Assembly (NCBI GenBank): GCA_024220525.1
Contig: JAMYWO010000279.1
Span: 1-40,690 of the forward strand
Direction: 5' to 3'
DNA from: Cochliopodium minus
Taxonomy: Eukaryota > Discosea > Himatismenida > Cochliopodiidae
DNA length: 40,690 nucleotides
How positions within the stretch are numbered: position 1 is the stretch's first letter; every line of letters starts with the position of its first letter. A program made the position numbers and the translations under genes. Shown one piece after another: positions 9,743-29,874 of the stretch. A model generated the notes under the pieces. It was given only the letters and a program-made list of their open reading frames with translations. It made no database searches and had not been told where the DNA came from.

Positions 9743-12700
9743 TTAAACTAAAAGATTATATTCCTTTTTTTTGGTGGTAAAAGAATCTTTTTTGTTGATA
9801 TTAGGAGGTCGGAAAAATCTCAACAAAAGAGAAGAAAGAACCACAGTAATAGAAGAACCAGCCCTATTTAATCAAAATAAAAAATAATTAAAAAAATTAA
9901 AAAATAAAAAATAAAAAATAATTAGAAAAGAGATAAAAGAGATATTACATGGCAAGAGCAGCAATAGCAGGGTGGACCTTTTAAATATTTCAAAAAAAAA
10001 ATTAAATTATATTTGATAAAATTTAAAAAGAACAAATGTAAGTTTTTTTTACAGTAACTGGGCGAATGAAAGGGTAGAGGATTCCTGCAGAGAGGGGAAT
10101 TCCTATACCGTTATACATGAAGGACCATACAAAATTCATTTTGATTCTGTTGTAAGTAGTTTTGGCAAGAGCGATGGCAGTGATGATATGTGAGAGATCA
10201 CTTCTCATCAAAACAATGTCTGCAGCTAAATAGGAATTAATTTTTATTTCATTTTTATTTTTTATTTTTTTATTTTTTTATTTTTTATTTTTTATTTTTT
10301 TTTTATTTTTCTTTTTTATTTTTATTTTTTATTTTTTATTTTTTATTTTTTATTTTTTATTTACTTTTTCTTTTCATTAATTTTTTATTGTTTACCTTCC
10401 ATTGCAATATCAGTGCCTGCACCAACAGCAATACCAACATCAGCTAAAGAGAAAAAAAACAATGAATAATTATTCAAAAAATAAATAAGAACATATTGTC
10501 GAATACCTTGAACCAAAGCAGGAGAATCATTAATTCCGTCCTTTTTAAAAAAATGTTAATTTATTTTTTGAATATTTTAAATATTTATTAGAATTTTTTA
10601 TTATTCATTTAAATATTTATTTGAATTTTATTTTACACCAATCATTGCGACATTATAACCTTGACTTTGGAGCTCTTTGACTTTAGAAACTTTGTTCTGA
10701 GGCAAAACTTCAGCGAAGACCTCAGTGATCCCGATTTGTTTGGCAATTGTCTTGGCTGTTTTCCTGTTGTCTCCTGTCACCATGTAAGATTCTATTCCCA
10801 ACTCTCTTTTGAGATATGAGACTACTGATGCTGCTTCTTCTCTAATCTTTTTTAGGAAAAGTAAATAAAAATAAAACATATTAAAATAATATTAAAATAA
10901 TATTAAATATAACAAAAATAAAATAAAATAAATTTTGATTTACTGTATCTGCAATAGCAATAATTCCTGATATTTCTCCATCTAATGAAACATAAAGTAC
11001 CTAGTTGATTTATCAAAAAAAAATAAAAAATAAAAAATAAAAAATAAAAAATAAAAAATAAAAAAATAATAAAAAAAAACCAAAAAAATTAAAAATTAAA
11101 AATTATTTTTACAGTTTTTCCTTCGTTTTCGTAGGATTGGACAAGAGAAACAACATCCTTGGTGATAACGTTGTTCATCCACTTTTGGTTACCAATCTTA
11201 ACTTTCTTGCCTTCAATGGTACATTGGAGACCGTTACCTGGGACGGTGGACCAATCAAAAACTTCCAACAAGGATCCTACATTCAATTCCTTTGCTTTTG
11301 TAATGATTGCTTTCGCCAAAGGGTGTTCACTTTGACCAAAAAAAAATTTAAAAAAAATTTTGGAAAATTAAAAAAAAGAAAAAATAAAATAAAATTTATT
11401 TACCTATCATTTTCTGCAGAAGATAAGTAACGGAAAAAGATGTTTTCGTCTGTAAAAAAATTCTTGTTGATGATATAGTAGTCTGTCACTTCTGGCTTTC
11501 CATGTGTCAAAGTTCCAGTTTTGTCGAAAATGATTGCATTTATGTTATGTGCTTTTTGCAAGATAGCTCCACTTTTTATCAGAATACCATGTTTCGCACC
11601 TTTAGAATTAGACATAAAATATGAATAAAAATAAATTTCTTTTGATCAAAATATTCTTTTTAGTTTACCAACACCTGTTCCAACCATCACTTTTTTTTTT
11701 TTTGAAAATGAATTGTTTTGTTTTAAAAAAGATTTTAAATTTGTATTTATCAAAAATTTTGAACCTGCAGTTGGTGTCTTTTGAAGAAAGTTAGAAAAAA
11801 AAATTTTAAATGATAAAAAAATAAAAAAAGGATATTTACAGCAAGACCTATTGAATTAAAATAAATAAGTAAAAAAAAATTTTTGAAATTTTTGATAAAA
11901 AAAGGTTTGTTACCAAGGGAACAAGGACAAGCAATGACCAAAACACTAATACCAAAAAGAAGAGAAAACAAAAAGTTGTTGTAACCTTTAGGAATCCAAG
12001 ACTCAGGGACAACAGTGGAAGTAAGGATCATCCAAACGATAAAAGTGAAGAGGGACAAACTAACAACAATAGGAACGAAAATGCCCGAAATTTTGTCAGC
12101 GAGTTTTTGGATGGGAGCCTTGTCTGTTTGCGCGTTTTCCATCATCTTGACGATTTGGGAGAGAACAGTGTCTCCTCCCACCATTGTGGCACGTACGTAG
12201 ATGCATCCTTCTTGATTAATGGTGGATCCGATCACTTTGTCGCCTGGCTTTTTGGAGACGGGCATGGATTCACCTGTTAACATGGACTCATTGACAGAAG
12301 AAGATCCTTTGACTATAACTCCGTCTATAGGAACTTTTTGACCAGGCAAAATCTTGATGATATCTCCTCTTTGTACAAGATTGGTGTCTATTTCTTTTTC
12401 TTCGTTTTTGCTGTAATCAACATCTCCTTCTCCTTTTTTGTTTGCATCTACTATTAAGGTGGCGGTGGGTGCTTGTAATTGGATGAGTTTTGTAAGTGCT
12501 TCGCTTGTTTTTCCTTTTGCGATACTCTCCAAAAGTCTCCCAAGCAAAATGAAACTGATCAACATCACTGGGGTGTCGAAAAACAATTGACTTTCAAACT
12601 TTGGGTTGATCATTCCTACCAACAGAGCAGCGACTGAATAAATATATGCAGACCAAGTTCCCAAACTGACCTAAAAAAAAGAAATAAATCACTTTTAAAT

Positions 12701-14149
12701 TCTTTAAATCTTTTTTATATGATTTACTAAAACATCCATTGTGGCAGCTCTGTGAGATAAACTCTTGTAAGCAGGAATATGAAAGACCATACCTTTTTAA
12801 AACATATTTATTGATATTTTTTAAAAAAAGAAAAGAAAAACTAACCAATCCAAAATTGCATAGGAGTGGCCAATATGAAATTCAAAAAAGCATCTATAGT
12901 TAAGGCCCTGTAGATCTTTGTGTGCAACAACATCATTGCAGGCTTGATCCACATCATTACCATCAAAATGAAGGAAGGAACAAAAAAGAACATGGAGATC
13001 TTGAAATATCTGGTGTATTTTCTTATCGCCTCTTTTTTCTTTAATGCGTCTTCGTTACTTCTTTTTTCTTGTTTGATTTTTGCTTCGAATCCTACATCTT
13101 CTACTGCAGAGAGGATTTCTCTTACTCCAATTAGATCAGTGTTATACTCGATTACTCCTGAGCAGGTCATTAAATCTACCACTGCGGAATTAATCCCCGT
13201 GATGTTTTTTAAATAGGTTTCGATGATACTTACACAAGAAGAACATGTCATTCCTTGATAAAACAAATAAAAAGAAATCAATAAATGGTTATCAATAAGG
13301 GGCGATGATTCTTATTTCTTTTACCTTCTATTGAGATATTACATACATTAGTTTCATTCTTTGGAATTATTTTTGCTTCAAATCCTATTTCTCCTATTGC
13401 ATCTTTTATTTTCTCTATAATTTTGGAAGGAAAAAAGAAATACTAAATTTGGTGTTTGGATTTTTAAAAAACCTCCTCAATTTACCTTTGGTGACAACAT
13501 TGGGATCATACCATACATCTCCTGATCCAAATAGATAGTTAATAGAACTTTTTGATACTCCCGTTATGCTGGATAGATAATGTTCGATTGTATTTGAGCA
13601 AGATGAACAAGTCATACCTATTTCATAAGGTATTTAAATGAAAATAAAGCATATTTTTAAATAAATTTTGGTATTGAAGGTAAAATATATTATTATAACG
13701 CATAGCATGGTTAAATAAAAGGAAATATATCTTATTCAAATGAAATATTAGGCTAAATTATGTCTGAAATATCAATTATACCTTCTATTTTAAATTCCAC
13801 TTTCTCTTGAGTATCAAAAAGTGATTTGTTCTTGTTTGATAGGGAATAATGATAACCAGATTTCGTCAACAATTCAAATATCTTGTTGGGATCCTTATCA
13901 TAAGTCTCCACATGAATAGTGGAATTATCTGAAGAAATTTCTACATTCTGGACATCCTCAAGAGTATTAATGGTTTTAATAATCACATTTCTTTCATTGC
14001 TGTATTAGGGGGTTAAATATTTTGAGATTTATAATATCTTTTTTATTTTACTTGCTCTTTATTCCTTCTACTTCAATAGATAAATTGAATAATTCAGACA
14101 TTGAAATCAATTGATTATCTCTGAGATCCATTTCTATATCCATTTCCAT
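9743..14149 (-). CDS. Copper-transporting P1B-1 ATPase, 964 aa, 19 exons
   Basis: Exons, all in phase: 14149-14052, 13999-13782, 13617-13486, 13414-13325, 13253-12846, 12792-12728, 12670-11914, 11847-11840, 11777-11765, 11689-11669, 11599-11404, 11329-11113, 11000-10944, 10846-10637, 10540-10507, 10443-10396, 10225-10053, 9977-9949, 9863-9743 (TAA). Order: a degenerate heavy-metal-associated domain without CxxC (about 17-85), two HMA domains with MTCSSC (about 107 and 181), then the membrane and pump core. Hallmarks: TGES (about 469), CPC (about 585), DKTGT with phosphorylated Asp about 629, SEHPLA (about 669), TGDN (about 784), GDGINDSP (about 830). Late helices carry YN (SFMYNGIG) and MAGSS, the Cu(I) selectivity signature of subgroup P1B-1. 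It pumps Cu(I) out of the cytosol into secretory compartments or out of the cell. Exons 8-10 are micro-exons of 8, 13 and 21 nt spanning the CPC-to-loop segment. Confidence 0.96.
10255..10365. repeat. Heptameric (ATTTTTT)n tract in an ATPase intron
   Basis: Roughly 110 bp of mostly perfect ATTTTTT units fill much of the intron between exons 16 and 17 of the copper ATPase. The same unit or its complement recurs in introns at 11022-11076, 35385-35472, 35799-35895, 36593-36637 and 36881-37010, in both orientations relative to the host gene. Confidence 0.85.
11022..11076. repeat. (AAAAAAT)n tract in an ATPase intron
   Basis: About seven units of the heptamer AAAAAAT lie between ATPase exons 12 and 13. 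Relative to the gene it is inverted compared with the tract at 10255-10365. Confidence 0.8.
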
Positions 14150-16179: not shown

Positions 16180-19100
16180 ATGAGCAATAATGATGGAAAG
16201 AAGAGGAATGATGAGGAAGATCAAGATTTGGCGGAAAAATACAACAAATTGATGAAAATGTATGAAAAAACGGCGAATTTATGCTTTGAGTTAAATTCTA
16301 AAGTGAATATATTGACCAATCAAGTTTATGATCTGAAAATATCCAATAAACAATTAGAATCAAGGATTAATGTTTTAGAAAGAAGAACTACAACGATTAA
16401 TTTTTTGGATACAAAGAATATAGAGATAGAGGAAGTCGATATAGAGGATGATAGCTCTAATGAGATTTTATCACCCACAATAACAACATCAAGAAAATCA
16501 AATGGTATGCCAACAATGCGCAAACAAAATTCATTTTTGATGATTTCATCAGATGAAAGTCTTTCGACGAATGGATCCCAAAATAATATTTTTGGTGACA
16601 ATAAAAATTATAACAACATCTCCACACCCAATATAGATATCAAAATGGATTATAGCAGTGAAAAGACAACAAATGATGAATCATCATTCATCACCAAAAA
16701 CTTTAATAACTTCAAAATTAACCTCAATAATCCCTTTTTTAGCGAATCAACCATAAGCAGAGTTTCTATAGGTATATTTCTTTTTTTTTTTGATTCTGAA
16801 AGTAATTTTGATTTAAATCAAAAATTTTATTACGACACCATTGGTTTCTCAATAAATATTTCATTTTGTATTAAATTCTTCTAAAAAAATTCTTACAAAT
16901 TTTATTAAACACTTTTAAATAGGTCTTTCTTCTGGCTTAGAGTTAGATGAAATGGAGGAACCCAAGAGTCAGCAAGATAAAATCAAAAGGACGATGGATT
17001 TGTTATTGTTATTTTTAAACAAGAACAAAGAAGCCAAAGTTATATATGATAAGTGTTGGAAAGTGTATCACCATGTTTGTGTAAATTTTTTTTTTTAAAA
17101 AATTTTTAACCAACATTAAATAAAGAATAATTTAATTCCTTTAATTCATTTAATTCATTTATTTCTGTTTTGTTGACAGAAAGATTCAAAATTATGTTTC
17201 GAGTCACCAGGGTTTTTTGAAACACTGATACAGCTAGTGTTCAGCTACAAACTTGAAAAGAACTCTGTCTGCATTCTCCTATGCTCACTTTCAAGACTAA
17301 TGGAAGAGGCGCAGCTGGAAAAATCTCAGATAGATTTAATGAAAGAAACCATAATCACCAAACTTTGTTGTTTGATGAATTTGCACGTTTCAAAAATCGA
17401 GAATAGACTAAAAAGAGTCATTGTGATGACTATATCCAATTTCTTTTCTATTGTCAAAGACCCTCCTTACCTTGTTTTTCAAGAATTGGTCAAGAACATC
17501 TCAGAGATTGATGATAACAAGTTTTATGACGTCGAGCTTTTGTTGACCCAGATCCTCAAGAACTGCTTCGTTCCACAGGATGTTCTTAACAAGTATTACA
17601 CTCTCAAACTCGCCAATTCTTTGTTGTCAAGCACTAGTTCCCCTGTTGTATTAGATACTTTATTCAATCTTTCTGAAACAATTAATGTAAAGTTTTTTCT
17701 TATTTTCATTATTTTGATTCTTATTTTTAAATAGATTAGTGGATTTTGTGAATCGAAGGAAATTCTTAAGCAAATTTCAGACTTCAAGGTACATGAGTTC
17801 AAGTACAAGAAAGGTTCTCGGTTCAATGATACAATAAACATCAAAAAAGATCATTTGGTCCAAGAAATTTCCAAATTATTGCAAAAAAATCACAAGTCGA
17901 CTTGGATATCTATTTCTTTTGTAAAAACTTTCTCAACTAACAATTTTTTAAAAATTAAAAATTTTTAGAGCGAGGGTAAAGAGGATGTTCCTAATATTCT
18001 TGATGGTCTACCTTTATTTGTTTTGGATAGTATTCTTTATTTGTTCAATAATTTGGATCAGATTTTTTATTTATTTTTCAATAAGAACAAGCATGATTCT
18101 TCAATAATGAAGCACTTATTAACTGAAACTTTTTCCATCATTCAAACAAAGATAATAAAATCTCGTAATAATTTTTTTTTAAATTTTCATTCCATTTTCA
18201 AATTTTATTCTTTTTAAAGCTTTAAACATACCTTTTGTCATGTTTTCTAATGATGGATTGGAAGATTTGTTTTCAATATTTTTTTTGATTGCTTTAAAGA
18301 AAACTCAATCGATATTGCTAGATAAAAAAGATGCAAAAGAACCAATCAACAAAATAATTCTTGATATTTACAAAGAATTCAAACTAGAACCCCCAAAAGA
18401 TAAGGTGCAAGCACAATCATTCTTAGATTTTCATATTAATTCATCAAGTAATTCTTTTTATTCTGAATAATTCTTTTAAATATTTTTTTTTTTTGTAAAA
18501 AATAGTACATGAGACACAAAAAGTGGAATTATCGGAGAAACTAATGAATTTGGTAAGGAAAAACACGCAAGAGGAAGAGATCTTGGAGCCAATAGACTAC
18601 TTCAAATATAAAAACCTCTACAAGGCAGACCTCTCTGAGTTCATCACGACCGAAGAAGGAGTGCCCAAAATCTTTGAGTTTTTGAAAGATTCTTTGTTAG
18701 AAAAGAAAGCGTTGTCTTACGAAGGACTTTTTCGACAAAATGGCGCTTCTGTCAAAGTTCATAGTCTAGAAAAGAAATTGAATAAGAGTGGTCTAAACAC
18801 TGGTATTGTCAAGTACCAACCTGATGTCATTGCTACGGTCATCAAGAGATGGTTTTCTTGCTTGTCTACTGTCATTCCTGCTTATGAGGAACTTTTGGAG
18901 TTAGTCAAGAAGAAAGTCTACAAAGATATTCCTAGCATCATTAAAGATAACTCTACAAAACAACAAATAGCTACATTGAGATCATTATTAAGATTTTTAA
19001 GGGTAATTGAACTTTTTTTTTTAAATTGATTTTTTAAAACTTATTTTTAATTTTTTTTTTTTAAAAAAAAAAGCTTTTTACATCAACAAAAAATAACACG

Positions 19101-19757
19101 AAAATGAACGCAAATGGTATCAGCATCATTTTTTCACCTATCATCTTCAAACCAGAAAAGATTAATCTTTCAGACAGCCTCCAAAACCAACCTTTCGAAA
19201 AAGAAGTAGTTCTCTATCTCCTTACACTAGGTTATGAGGAGATACTTTATTCAGGAGACACCTATCTAAAAAAAGAAGGTTTAAAGTTCAAAAACGTTCA
19301 AATGATCGGTTTACATTCTAGTGCGACTATTGGAGATTACATTATTTCCAATTTTGTCCTTAACATTCTCAATTATGTACCCAAAGTTAATTACACTCGA
19401 GGTGGTATCCTTTTCCAAGATTCTTTCAGTGGGAAAACTCTTTCTGATTTCGTTCAGGATCATCTCAAGATCGATTTTGAGAGTTCTTTCATCATTTGTC
19501 AATGGTTGCTTGACTTGTACATTATTTCTCCTATTTCTGATCACAAAACTTTTTTTCCCACAAAGGATGTTCAATATTTATTTATTTATAACTTCAACAG
19601 CAAAAAATCTCTTAAGATCCGCAACGGTAGCAAGAGTCTCCGTTTGAAAAAGAACGAGAAGTTTTTGGATAAGGATTCTCTTCACAAGCTTTCCAACAAT
19701 TCTCTCACCAAGAAAAAATCTGGTTTGGATATAAAAAATTTTAAGTATCATGATTAG
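16180..19757 (+). CDS. RhoGAP-DEP protein with long helical N-terminus, 1015 aa
   Basis: Eight exons keep phase: 16180-16771, 16923-17080, 17180-17686, 17735-17920, 17969-18164, 18220-18447, 18506-19002 and 19074-19757 (TAG). Residues about 18-75 are a predicted coiled coil, followed by a Ser/Asn-rich disordered stretch to about 195. Residues about 215-620 are Leu-rich helices with ARM/HEAT or formin-FH3 flavour but no firm match. The RhoGAP domain spans about 655-845 with an intact arginine finger (SYEGLFRQNGAS, Arg near 699) and IIFSPIIFKP at its end. A DEP domain follows (about 870-960: FQDSFSGKTLSDFVQDH, FIICQWLLDLYIIS), a module that often binds membranes or receptor partners. It should speed GTP hydrolysis on a Rho/Rac GTPase at the cortex. 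The tail is Lys/Ser-rich. Unlike the RhoGAP at 593-4110 it looks catalytically competent. Confidence 0.9.
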
Positions 19758-24953: not shown

Positions 24954-27356
24954 ATGAGCAAAAATAATATTATTAAATTGGCCCTAATTGGTGCGGGAGG
25001 AACAGGTAGATTTCATCAATCACAAATAAGATTGGATATCAATTTTTTATAGAATTAAAAAATGAAATTGTTAAAAATGATCAACATTTTTAGAAGATAT
25101 TTAATTTTAACTCATTTATCAATAATATACTATCTCATTGTTAAGATATAAATAAATGATACAAAAATTATATTGAATATATTTTTTATTTTCAAAATAT
25201 AATATTAAATATTGCGATTTTGATCTTCATTTGAAAGATTATTACTCCCCACTTACATTTATCCATTCCAAATAAAATTTTGAATATTTTAATCAAATAA
25301 AAAAACAATTTTTATCTTCATTTAGGATGCACAGCTAATCTAATAAAATTTACGAGCGATTTTTTCATTGAAACATAGTAAAAAGATGTATTTTTAAAGG
25401 ATGTCAATTATAAATTAAAAAATTAATCCAAAATAAGTGATCCTACAATAGAAGATTCATATACTAAACAAACATTTATAGATGATATAGAGGTATGTTA
25501 TGAAATCCTTGATACAGGTGGGTAAAATTTTTTTTTTAATTATATATTTTTTGAACTAATAATTTGTTTTTATCAAATCAATAGTGGGGTAAAAAATTTT
25601 ATTATTTCTAAATTTATTTAAATTGTATTAGGAACTTTATTCTTTTCTAAGGGAACAATGGATTACAAGATCCGATTGTTTCATACTAATGTTTTCAGTA
25701 ATAAGAAGATACACTTTCGATGATTTAAAGTATTACATTGACCAAGTATTAAGAATCAAAGGGAACCATTATATTAGTAACATTTTTTTTTAATAAAATT
25801 TTTTTTTTTTTTTCATTTTTTTTTTTAAAAAGGTTTAATAACAATTGTTGGAAATCAAAGTAATGAGCCTTTTTTTTTATTAATTTTAGAATTTTTTCAA
25901 TTTAATAAGTTTTTAATCAATTATTTACTTATATCTTTTTATCAACAATTTTAATTTAAATGAAAATAAAGTTGATCATGTGAAATCTAGAGTAATCAAC
26001 CCTTGTGAAGGGTTGGCACTTTCAAAAATGATGGGTTGCAAATATTTTGAAACATCTGCGAAAACTGGACACAACATAAACTCAAGCTATTTTCATATAG
26101 GAAGGGAATGCTATCAATCAAAGAACAACCCAAAATATAAACAAGAGAAAGAGAAAGAAAGATTGAAAAATAAGAATATAACTTTATTGTTGGGAAGAGG
26201 TTGGTCTGATTTCATCCATACATCTTTTTTCAACAAGAAATGGGACAAAGTCGAAATTCCAGAAATCAACAAAAACTTGAAAAACGTTTGGATTCTCATC
26301 TTTTCTTACTTGATAAACTACAAAGATAGAAAAAACAATGAAGAATTATTGAATTACAAATTGGTTTGTAAACATTGGTTTGAAATGATCTCTAAAAACT
26401 TTAAGGGGACTTATTCTAAGGAAAATGAGGGAATAGGTATGGGATCTTTTGATACGAATAGTGGAGATTGCATTGTCTTTGCAGATTGGGATAAACCTGT
26501 TTATTTTTTCAATGTTGTGAATTGTGTTGTCTTTGTGGATGTATCGGAATTAACTTTCAATGAATCTAAAAAATCGGAATTTGAAACAGCAATTGAATGG
26601 ATCAATGATAATAAAAATTTTGAGCCTTTGACAGGGATAACAGTAGTTTTACATAATTTCACCAAAATCAAAAGAGATTCCATCAAGATCCCAGGAAATT
26701 TTAACTATGAAATAGATTCCCTAAAAAAAAATAGTAAAGTGTACAATGTAATAGAAGTTGATGACCTTTTCTCAATTGAAAATATAGAAGAAGTTTATTT
26801 GAAAGCAAAAATTCCTAAATTTGATTTAAAGTTAAATAAACCCAATGTGGATTCTCACTATGATGAAAGCAGCAAATTTGACATGTTTATTCTTTGTGAA
26901 TCTCCCAAAAAAATCTATAATTTCCGTCATAGTGCATCCAAGTATGTCAATATTATTTCGGCAGAGCAATTAACTCTTAAGAACGAAGAAATAAACAATA
27001 AATTTCAAAAAAACAAAGTTGAAATCAAACTTCCTGTTGACATTTTTATTGTTGAAATGATTGGAATAGAAAATCAAAATTCAAGAGTTAATGAGAATGA
27101 AAGTGAACAAATTGATTGGACAGGCAAAGTAATGTTTACAAATACAAATAATTTTGATTTAAAGGTCAAAATTTTTTGTAATCACGTTGGTTTTAAATTT
27201 GAGAAGGAATTTACTTTAAAGAAAAAGTTTTCTTTTCCTTTCGAGTTAAAGTGTACCAGTTATGGAAATGAAGGAACATTTTTGATTGTTCAAATCAAAA
27301 AATCAGCATTCAAGAAAACCTCTATGTTTTTAAAACTCGTTGATAAAAAAAAATAA
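24954..27356 (+). CDS. Ras-like/F-box fusion protein, copy 1, 574 aa
   Basis: Exons: 24954-25005, 25326-25377, 25438-25521, 25652-25776, 25833-25859 and 25972-27356 (TAA). Residues 1-160 are a Ras-family G domain: P-loop LIGAGGTGCTANLIKF (the Lys of GxxxxGK[ST] is Cys), effector YDPTIEDSYTKQ, EILDTGG, VGNQID (NKxD-like) and FETSAKTG. A large unique extension follows. It starts with LLLGRGWSDFIHTSFFNKKW, then an F-box-like block (about 205-250: LKNVWILIFSYLI, NYKLVCKHWFEMISKNF), then about 320 unrecognised residues conserved with copy 2. F-boxes recruit SKP1/cullin ubiquitin ligases, so a Ras-like domain may select targets or location; this is inference. Exon 4 only stays in frame from the acceptor at 25651, dropping the switch II residues (ELYSFLR) encoded just upstream. 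The usual acceptor at 25631 would frameshift. It may be active with altered switch II, or an early pseudogene. Confidence 0.75.
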
Positions 27357-27490
27357 AAAATGGAATTCTCAAAGAATCTTATTTGGAGATTTCTTAACAA
27401 GTCCGAATAATGATCTTTATAAATCAAACTTTTTTTTTTTGAATAATTTAAAATAATAAATAATTAAAAGATTATCAAATTTTGATCATA

Positions 27491-27740
27491 GGAAGAGGTT
27501 GGCCCAATTTCATCCATACATCTTTTTTCAACAAGAAATGGGACATGTAGAAAAAACTATGAAAAATTATTGAAATCAAAAATTATTGGTTAGTAAACAT
27601 TTTTTTGAAATCATCTCCAAATATATCTTCTTTTTCAATAGGTTCTTGTTTTTTTACATCCTCTTTTTTTGAACAACTTTGCCAGGTCAGTTGTTTTATG
27701 TTTCAAATGATAGTAATGGAATGTGGGAAAATCCTTCATA
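27491..27740 (+). pseudogene. Relic of a Ras-F-box gene
   Basis: A decayed fragment between the two larger copies. It shares near-exact blocks with both, for example catccatacatcttttttc at 27520, followed by a shortened counterpart of the VCKHWFE region (27570-27615) and then a block near 27655-27730 matching copy 2 at about 29110-29185. Several in-frame stops are present, and the start of the F-box (about 80 nt) is deleted. No intact reading frame remains. The short open frame at 27679-27975 overlaps the relic and the first exon of copy 2 and is not a gene. Confidence 0.8.
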
Positions 27741-27879
27741 TTTTTTATTTTATCAAATGAGTTGTCTAGTATGTTTAGGAATAAAACAATTTACAAAGAA
27801 CAAATCTAAATTTCAAAAGGCAAATAGAATGGCAAAGAAAGAAAAAATTGAATTTGAAATTAATTCAAAAAAAAAAAAA

Positions 27880-29874
27880 ATGAGTTTGGGAATTCCCTCA
27901 ATAAAAATATGTTTTTTTGGAAGTGGATCAATAGGTCAATTATTTCAAAAATATAAAACCATTAGAAAAAAATAAACAATCTAATATTTTTTTTAATTAA
28001 AGGTACAAAAACTTCTGGCATTATTAGATTCATTAATGGTGTTTTTTTGGATAGTAAAAATCAATAATTAATCTCTTTTGAAGCATAGTAAAAAAATTTT
28101 TCATTTTTTCAGTGAAAAAAATTAAATTAATTTAATTAGTGATCCCACAATAGAAGATTGGTATTCAAAACAAATTGAATTAGATGGAAAATCTATTAAA
28201 TTGGAACTCCTTGATACACCTGGGTAATTGAAATTATTTTCGAAAAATAAAAAATTTTTTTAAAAAAAATCTTCATCTAGACAAGAAGAGTATCGTATAT
28301 TTTGGGACGGCTGGATAAATAATACACAATGTTTTGTTATTGGTTTTTCTATTACCGACAAAAGAACTTTGTATGAAATAAAGCCTTACATCGATCTCAT
28401 ATTAAAACTAAAAGGAGATAATATTACTGGTATATTAAAAAAATTAATTTTTTTAATTTTTATTCTCGTTTCAATATTTAGATATGATGACCATTGTAGG
28501 AAATAAAGGTATAAAAAATTATTTTTAATATTAAAAATTCAAATATTTTTAATTATTTCTTCTTTTTTTATTTTGATTATTGATTAAAATTTAAAAAAAA
28601 GTTGATTTAGAATAACGAAGGGAAGTAAAATCGTGTGAAGGATTAGCAATTTCGAGGTTATTGGGATGCAAATATTTCGAAACATCGGCAAAAACAGGAT
28701 ATAATATTAATGAGAGTATTTATCATACTGTGAGACAATGTTACCAATCCAAATACAATCCAAAATACAACCTTGATAAAGAGAAAGAAAGATTGAAAAA
28801 TAAGAATATAACTTTATTGTTGGGAAGTGGTTGGTCTGATTTCATCCATACATCTTTTTTCAACAAGAAATGGGAAAAAGTTGAAATTCCAGAAATCAAC
28901 AAAAACTTGAAAAACGTTTGGATTCTCATCTTTTCATACTTAATCAAAAGCAATGACTCCTACAACAAAGAAAAATTGAATTACAAATTGGTTTGTAAAC
29001 ATTGGTTTGAACTGATCTCCAAAAATTTTACCAACACCCATTCTTTAAATAATTTATGGAAAATGGGATTTATGAAAATAACAAAGACTGTGTAGTTTTT
29101 TCAGATTGGGAAAAACCTCTTTTTTTGCACAACGTTGTCAGGTCGATTGTTTTTATGGATTCAAATGGTTGTAATGGAAAGTGGGATCAAACAATCAAAT
29201 GGCTCAAAGAGGAGAACCTTTCTAAAGTGAAAGAAGTCCATGTCGTGATTCACAATTTTTCCGATTCAGCTTCATCACCTGATTTGAATTTTTTAAAATC
29301 ATTTAAATCTTTTAATGTGATAGAAGTTGGCGATCTTTTCTCAATAAAAAATGTCGAGACAGTTTACTCAAAAGCGAAAATACCAAAAATAAAGTATGGT
29401 GATCTCAATCATCCATTTAACTCTAATTCCGAATTTGACATTTTCTCTCTTTGTGAATCTCCCAAAAAAATCTCAAAAAATCTTATTCAAGCTTCAAATT
29501 ATATCAAAACCCTTTCATTTGGAAAAATAGTTCTCAAAAATGAAGAAATAAACAAAAAGCTCCAAAAAAATAAGATTGAAATCAAACTTCCTGTTGATCT
29601 TTTTGTTATTGAAATGATTTCCAACAAAAATGAATGGACCGGTAAAACAACATTTATCAATACAAACGATTTTGACTTAAAATTGAAGATCTTTTCTTCT
29701 GACAATGATTATCTGTTTCAGAAAGCATTTACTTTGAAGAAAAATTTTTCTTTTCCTTTTGAAATAAAATACAGTGGAGAAAAACAAGATGGATCATTTT
29801 TGGTTGTTCAGATCAAAAAATCAGCTTTCAAGAAAACTTCTTTCTTTTTTAAAATTAAATTTAATTTGAAATAA
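27880..29874 (+). pseudogene. Ras-like/F-box fusion, copy 2, disrupted
   Basis: The exon layout parallels copy 1: 27880-27934, 28003-28053, 28140-28223, 28281-28429, 28482-28508, 28602 onward. The G-domain motifs are better kept in places ([38 protein letters not shown]). Breaks: the P-loop reads GSGSIGTKTS with an extra Thr, exon 2 is 51 rather than 52 nt so exon 3 falls out of frame, a TAA stop at 28613-28615 follows NKVDLE, and a frameshift lies near 29056-29090 between the F-box part and the C-terminal part (open 29056-29874). The C-terminal frame has few other lesions (ESPKKISK, KLPVDLFVIEMIS, KKSAFKKTS), so disruption looks recent. The stop sits where relatives usually have a polar residue, but the rest of the window uses TAA as a true stop, so reassignment is unlikely. 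Confidence 0.82.

Follow-up and report, generated by a model that had tools for sequence, protein, structure and literature searches.

Small GTPases and cullin-ligase adaptors are joined on one chain in RhoBTB, where an autoinhibitory contact between the GTPase and adaptor domains has been proposed (PMC4931677). Here we describe a family of genes in Cochliopodium minus in which a Ras-type GTPase (G) domain is followed by an F-box-like block and a long C-terminal region. Two tandem copies lie in a 40,690-nucleotide stretch (JAMYWO010000279.1, assembly GCA_024220525.1; hereafter the window), which is an entire contig, C277. The likeness to RhoBTB lies in the order of parts: in both, the GTPase domain precedes a cullin-ligase adaptor within a single chain, and a further domain follows towards the C terminus. 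In contrast to RhoBTB, an atypical Rho GTPase with two BTB domains that pairs with cullin 3, the family has a Ras-type switch I (YDPTIEDSY) and an F-box adaptor, and Pfam scans of its members gave no BTB or BACK match. An F-box normally connects its protein to the ubiquitin-tagging machinery, and F-box adaptors work with Skp1 and cullin 1.

Human KRAS and L057, a Ras gene of C. minus itself, share with the family switch I, DTAGQE, GNKxD and ETSAK. The family differs from both in an extra residue in the phosphate-binding loop (P-loop), in having no CaaX end and in the F-box behind the G domain. In the PDB, the F-box block of one member (C45a alone) matches FBXL17 best (E 0.014); unlike F-box proteins of the FBXL17 type, the family carries an upstream Ras G domain, and its Pfam scans gave no leucine-rich repeat match. 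Among the papers listed in literature searches on this pairing, we saw no description of a fusion between a Ras or other small GTPase and an F-box. The Naegleria fowleri genome paper leaves its small-GTPase results to a supplement, and its references include F-box, BTB and RhoBTB reviews (PMC8296547). GTPase–F-box fusions, of this family or another, may already be noted there, and we have lowered the claim to novelty for this reason.

A paralogous family with a common domain order

Sequence comparison indicates that the order Ras G domain–F-box on one chain is real and that the family bearing it is conserved. On balance, we lean towards reading its members as paralogous Skp1–cullin–F-box (SCF) adaptors with an atypical Ras arm, the Skp1 binding and the SCF role being predicted. 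A search of the window's own genome (44.65 Mb in 598 contigs), with the open exons of copy 1 and of the paralog C130 as queries, yielded 13 family copies: copy 1 (W1) and copy 2 (W2) in the window and, named by contig, C364, C130, C97, C6, five in one array (C45a-e) and two on C189 (C189a and C189b). A single open exon holds the ETSAK end of the G domain, the F-box-like block and approximately 300–320 family-specific residues in 11 of the 13, so the junction between the first two is independent of splicing. This large last exon is split over two frames in W2 and carries one TGA in C364. In the five-member array (C45:185843-195953), the last exons are open and two members stand head to head.

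A divergent relative, C188 (L063:1279-2376), carries Ras and F-box in a single 365-codon open frame. Its Ras match scores 45.4 bits (cut-off 21.6) and covers profile positions 39–159 of 162, while its F-box scores 21.7 bits against PF00646 (cut-off 20.5) and 23.8 bits against PF12937, the latter under its cut-off. The G4 motif of C188 is lost (by eye), and its tail is unlike that of the family. Of the original prediction, which had a Ras-like G domain, an F-box-like block and a C-terminal region in this order, the fusion and the F-box are supported by the 13 paralogs, by Pfam and by C188.

The ratio of nonsynonymous to synonymous divergence (dN/dS) was 0.16–0.46 for the large exon (Nei–Gojobori, 13 chosen pairs) and 0.09–0.48 for the G domain in eight of nine chosen pairs, the ninth being saturated; these ratios are rough because several synonymous divergences (dS) are high. 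In a tree drawn with C188 as a long outside branch, and with only the C-terminal piece of W2, the copies W1, W2 and C364 cluster (100/99), with C130 adjoining (96/99). C189a and C189b are identical over their last 189 residues and 543 coding bases (L011), but diverge towards the front (dS 0.78 in the F-box part), which suggests a recent gene conversion or partial duplication between them. Scans by tblastn, with two peptide patterns each, found no family relatives among 84 pattern stretches from viral contigs or 72 from prokaryote genome contigs.

The C-terminal region had been predicted as about 320 conserved residues. It spans approximately 300–320, with a mean column identity of 52% over 12 rows, the motif N-[ST]-N-x-F-D-L-K and a lysine-rich end, and has no convincing match to a known family: Pfam gave weak matches to differing families in 10 members (best E 0.005), NCBIfam nothing consistent in five (best E 0.0076), and the PDB a single match (E 0.072) and no consistent family. 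In one genome search with C130 as query, family members alone gave matches to its last 187 residues. An NYN ribonuclease assignment was dropped, since PF11977 matched one of ten members (E 0.011) and none of the other nine. A second, degenerate G domain after the F-box, which the strand and helix order fitted by eye, was also rejected. In hhalign, the region scored 13.7 against the second half of the Ras alignment and 12.9 when reversed, no better than 60 column shuffles (median 11.7, top 17.5, at least 10 of the 60 above 13.7).

The two copies in the window

Within the window (G+C 20–34% per 2 kb), copy 1 runs from an ATG at 24954 to a stop at 27354-27356 and copy 2 from 27880 to 29874, in tandem (Table 1). 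Introns in the family genes are short, with GT or GC at one end and AG at the other. Between the two copies lies a fragment of a third (E 7.3e-7) with two internal stops. The G domains of both copies had been described as complete-looking, which does not hold. In copy 1 the P-loop reads GAGGTG-C-T, compared with GAGGVGKS in Ras, and its lysine is absent; G3 reads DTGGGE (DTAGQE in Ras), and then only through a 4-base exon, the frame otherwise breaking. The expected DPTIED and ETSAKT are present; at G4 the copy reads GNQIDH rather than GNKxD (GNKCDL in Ras). Copy 2 retains the motifs, with DTPGQE at G3, and carries an in-frame TAA, a frame change between approximately 29023 and 29095, and an irregular junction of exons 2 and 3.

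With little more than even confidence, we read the window, within the SCF-adaptor explanation, as holding a decaying sub-clade in which copy 2 would be a pseudogene and copy 1 would be one as well or else a pseudoGTPase–F-box protein. A rival reading, which we regard as probable and which is compatible with the best explanation, takes both window copies as pseudogenes left by tandem duplication and now without function, the family working elsewhere. It accommodates the stop and frame break of W2, the doubtful 4-base exon and lost motifs of W1, the third-copy fragment and the broken state of the related C364. Conversely, W1 shows no interruption in its 442-codon end, and its large exon has a dN/dS of 0.16–0.34 against the W2 pieces and C364; at least that exon was therefore long kept by selection.

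Table 1. Positions of the family copies and their parts in the window
Feature	Position	Strand	Basis
Copy 1, G-domain exon 1: start codon and first part of P-loop (GAGGTG)	24954..25005	+	Spliced alignment; GT donor at 25006
Copy 1, exon 2: C-T-A-N-L-I-K-F, no P-loop lysine	25326..25377	+	Spliced alignment, motif comparison
Copy 1, exon 3: switch I DPTIEDSY to DTGG	25438..25521	+	Spliced alignment
Copy 1, doubtful 4-base exon flanked by introns of 63 and 43 bases; frame breaks if unused	25585..25588	+	Spliced alignment
Copy 1, exon 4 (ELYSFLREQW...)	25632..25776	+	Spliced alignment
Copy 1, exon 5, ending GNQ at the G4 place	25833..25859	+	Spliced alignment
Copy 1, large last exon: end of G domain, F-box, C-terminal region, stop	25972..27356	+	Open frame 25917-27356; acceptor from spliced alignment
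Copy 1, ETSAKT (G5) motif	26049..26066	+	KRAS comparison
Copy 1, F-box-like block (residues 87-123 of open exon)	26286..26396	+	PF12937 match
Copy 1, family-specific C-terminal region, ~320 residues	26385..27353	+	Family alignment A3
Third-copy fragment: linker and start of F-box region	27464..27595	+	Genome search
Copy 2, G-domain exons with irregular exon 2/3 junction; TAA at 28613-28615	27880..28615	+	Spliced alignment
Copy 2, open frame with G5 motif and F-box (PF12937 at 28916-29026, E 0.0016, 18.6 bits)	28616..29095	+	Pfam match
Copy 2, C-terminal region in a different frame	29053..29874	+	Genome search

Elsewhere in the window, exons of a copper-type P-type ATPase (CxxC and TGES motifs) lie on the minus strand at 11750-13311, and RhoGAP-like exons at 18499-19757, both assigned by eye.

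The G domain and its longer P-loop

G-domain models were built by aligning the stretches upstream of the large exon to a Ras-type reference, with GT–AG introns allowed; the spliced-alignment script took GT donors only. Models free of stops and frame steps were obtained for eight of the 13 copies (C45a, C45c, C45d, C45e, C189a, C189b, C130 and C97), the first exon of C130 being unsure. The C45b model has one frame step and that of C6 reads through two introns, and by eye both have GC–AG introns at these places. The remaining models need a 4-base exon (W1), contain a stop and a 4-base piece (W2), or contain a stop and a frame step (C364). All 13 spliced models matched human KRAS with E values of 5e-24 to 3e-41 (4.6e-33 for copy 1), in a set of 13 sequences and with splicing guided by the Ras-type reference. 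Furthermore, intron positions in the G domain are common to the family copies, and the family profile matched KRas structures in the PDB (best E 5.1e-6).

C45a-e, C189a-b, C130 and C97 retain a YDPTIEDSY-like switch I together with DTAGQE, GNKxD and ETSAK, with small switch I changes in C45b (YDVTIED) and C45d (YDPTIDD); for C45b and C6 the motif reading relies on the GC–AG introns assigned by eye, and in W1 and C364 the motifs are changed. GNKxD and ETSAK serve guanine binding in Ras. None of the 13 copies has a CaaX prenylation box at the end of the last exon. The P-loop is one residue longer than in Ras in 11 copies, copy 2 and all ten outside the W1/W2/C364 sub-clade included. It takes the form GDGGxG-N-K-T, with S, A or T for N and further changes in some copies; the extra residue stands before the lysine, its exact place being ambiguous in the MAFFT alignment. 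Nor do the other two carry the pattern GxxxxGK[ST]: W1 has no lysine, and C364, the only copy with the spacing, has A for the second G. The L057 Ras gene has normal spacing. The extra codon follows an intron in ten of the 11 copies; it is unlikely to reflect splice-site choice, because the C130 model has the residue with no intron there.

These features bear on whether the G domain could act as the GTPase-like switch of the original prediction. That idea is weakened, since nucleotide-binding residues or reading frames are gone from the window copies and the P-loop is longer in ten of ten copies outside their sub-clade. The predicted gating or localisation of ubiquitin transfer by the Ras-type domain would be hypothetical. 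The same evidence divides over a pseudoGTPase scaffold, in which the G domain would no longer cycle and would offer a fixed protein-binding surface while the F-box part works. The P-loop lengthened by one residue in 11 of 13 copies, the lysine missing from W1, and a G4 altered in W1 and C364 and lost in C188 (by eye) would fit such a scaffold, which we nevertheless consider unlikely: G2–G5, GNKxD and ETSAK included, are otherwise kept in the better-preserved paralogs, and the G-domain dN/dS is low.

The F-box block and its predicted role

The F-box-like block of the original prediction was recovered by profile search: copy 1 matches PF12937 with E 1.4e-4 and 22.0 bits, under the cut-off of 24.3, and Pfam F-box-like matches recur in 11 of the 12 rows aligned for the family (E up to 1, best 2.5e-6), the twelfth being a W2 piece that lacks the region. 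PF12937 scores lie over the cut-off in C45a (27.6), C45c (26.1), C45b (25.7), C45e (25.4) and C6 (24.4), and at it in C189a (24.3). In the same genome, Skp1 genes were found over cut-off at six places, and all 150 scored of 469 F-box candidates gave matches at E up to 1; an SCF system is therefore expected. Actin matches are also present; enolase matches were not diagnostic of a lineage, and a single hydrogenase-like locus was found, which speaks against Anaeramoeba.

The Ras and F-box families both look strongly expanded in this genome, where a first look gave 771 Ras-family candidates, of which 150 were scored. At a minus-strand locus (L060, C11:121500-131400), five F-box frames, all matched, alternate with five small-GTPase frames that are Rho-like by eye, match Pfam Ras in four of five and end in C-x-x-F (CNLF, CIFF, CTLF, CFLF, CILF). 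They may be F-box–GTPase–CaaX fusions whose order is reversed, or genes of the two kinds in alternation. On C134 and C307, Ras lies near F-box in what we took as separate genes, the Ras frames ending in tails of their own (GLCSLL, KKCIIF). On contig C1, near 633782, a Ras match lies within an open frame of 14711 residues, possibly artefactual.

Several points weigh against the SCF-adaptor explanation, in which the SCF function is a predicted one. Taken by itself, the G-domain portion that the large exon carries scored under the Ras cut-off in all ten members scanned, and lesions or lost motifs occur in all three copies of the W1/W2/C364 sub-clade. In some pairs, synonymous divergence has reached saturation (dS up to 2.2 and 3.0). 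PF12937 falls under its cut-off in five of 11 members (C189b 23.1, W1 22.0, C45d 21.3, C97 19.4, C130 17.9), as it does in the W2 piece (18.6), and the block is without the usual leading Leu-Pro of an F-box.

The five scores under cut-off would also suit a helical linker without Skp1 binding, in a protein with a non-ubiquitin role. We regard this as improbable, given that 11 of 12 rows match, five of 11 members exceed the cut-off, C188 clears that of PF00646, and the position of the block after the G domain is constant. As a long shot, the Ras module could itself be the substrate receptor: with its effector loop intact and hydrolysis prevented by the longer P-loop, it would capture Ras effectors or GTPase-activating proteins for SCF, acting as a decoy Ras that destroys Ras-pathway partners. 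On sequence grounds, it is highly improbable that two adjoining genes, with a break near 26100, were read as one, as ETSAK and the F-box share an open exon in 11 of 13 copies, dN/dS is low, and C188 has most of the Ras domain and the F-box in one frame.

The simplest reading of the family, and the most likely, is an SCF adaptor with a Ras-type arm, analogous to RhoBTB and cullin 3, RhoBTB being the closest analogue known. The chain runs from a Ras-subfamily G domain with a longer P-loop through a short linker and the F-box to the C-terminal region of approximately 300–320 residues. The F-box would bind Skp1 and make the protein an SCF adaptor, and the C-terminal region, whose role is a guess, or the Ras effector surface may select the target. 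The atypical Ras module could serve as a regulatory or docking arm, perhaps an autoinhibitory one as proposed for RhoBTB. A locked Ras arm is possible, because P-loop insertions and duplications in human KRAS are described as biased to the GTP-bound state (PMC12488390). The insertions named there are at residues 9–14, nearer the loop start than the extra residue of the family as placed by MAFFT.

If this reading is true, the family would stand to Ras and SCF as RhoBTB does to Rho and cullin 3, and small GTPases would have been wired to cullin ligases more than once. Its conserved P-loop, one residue longer, would also provide a natural test of how much change the G1 motif tolerates.

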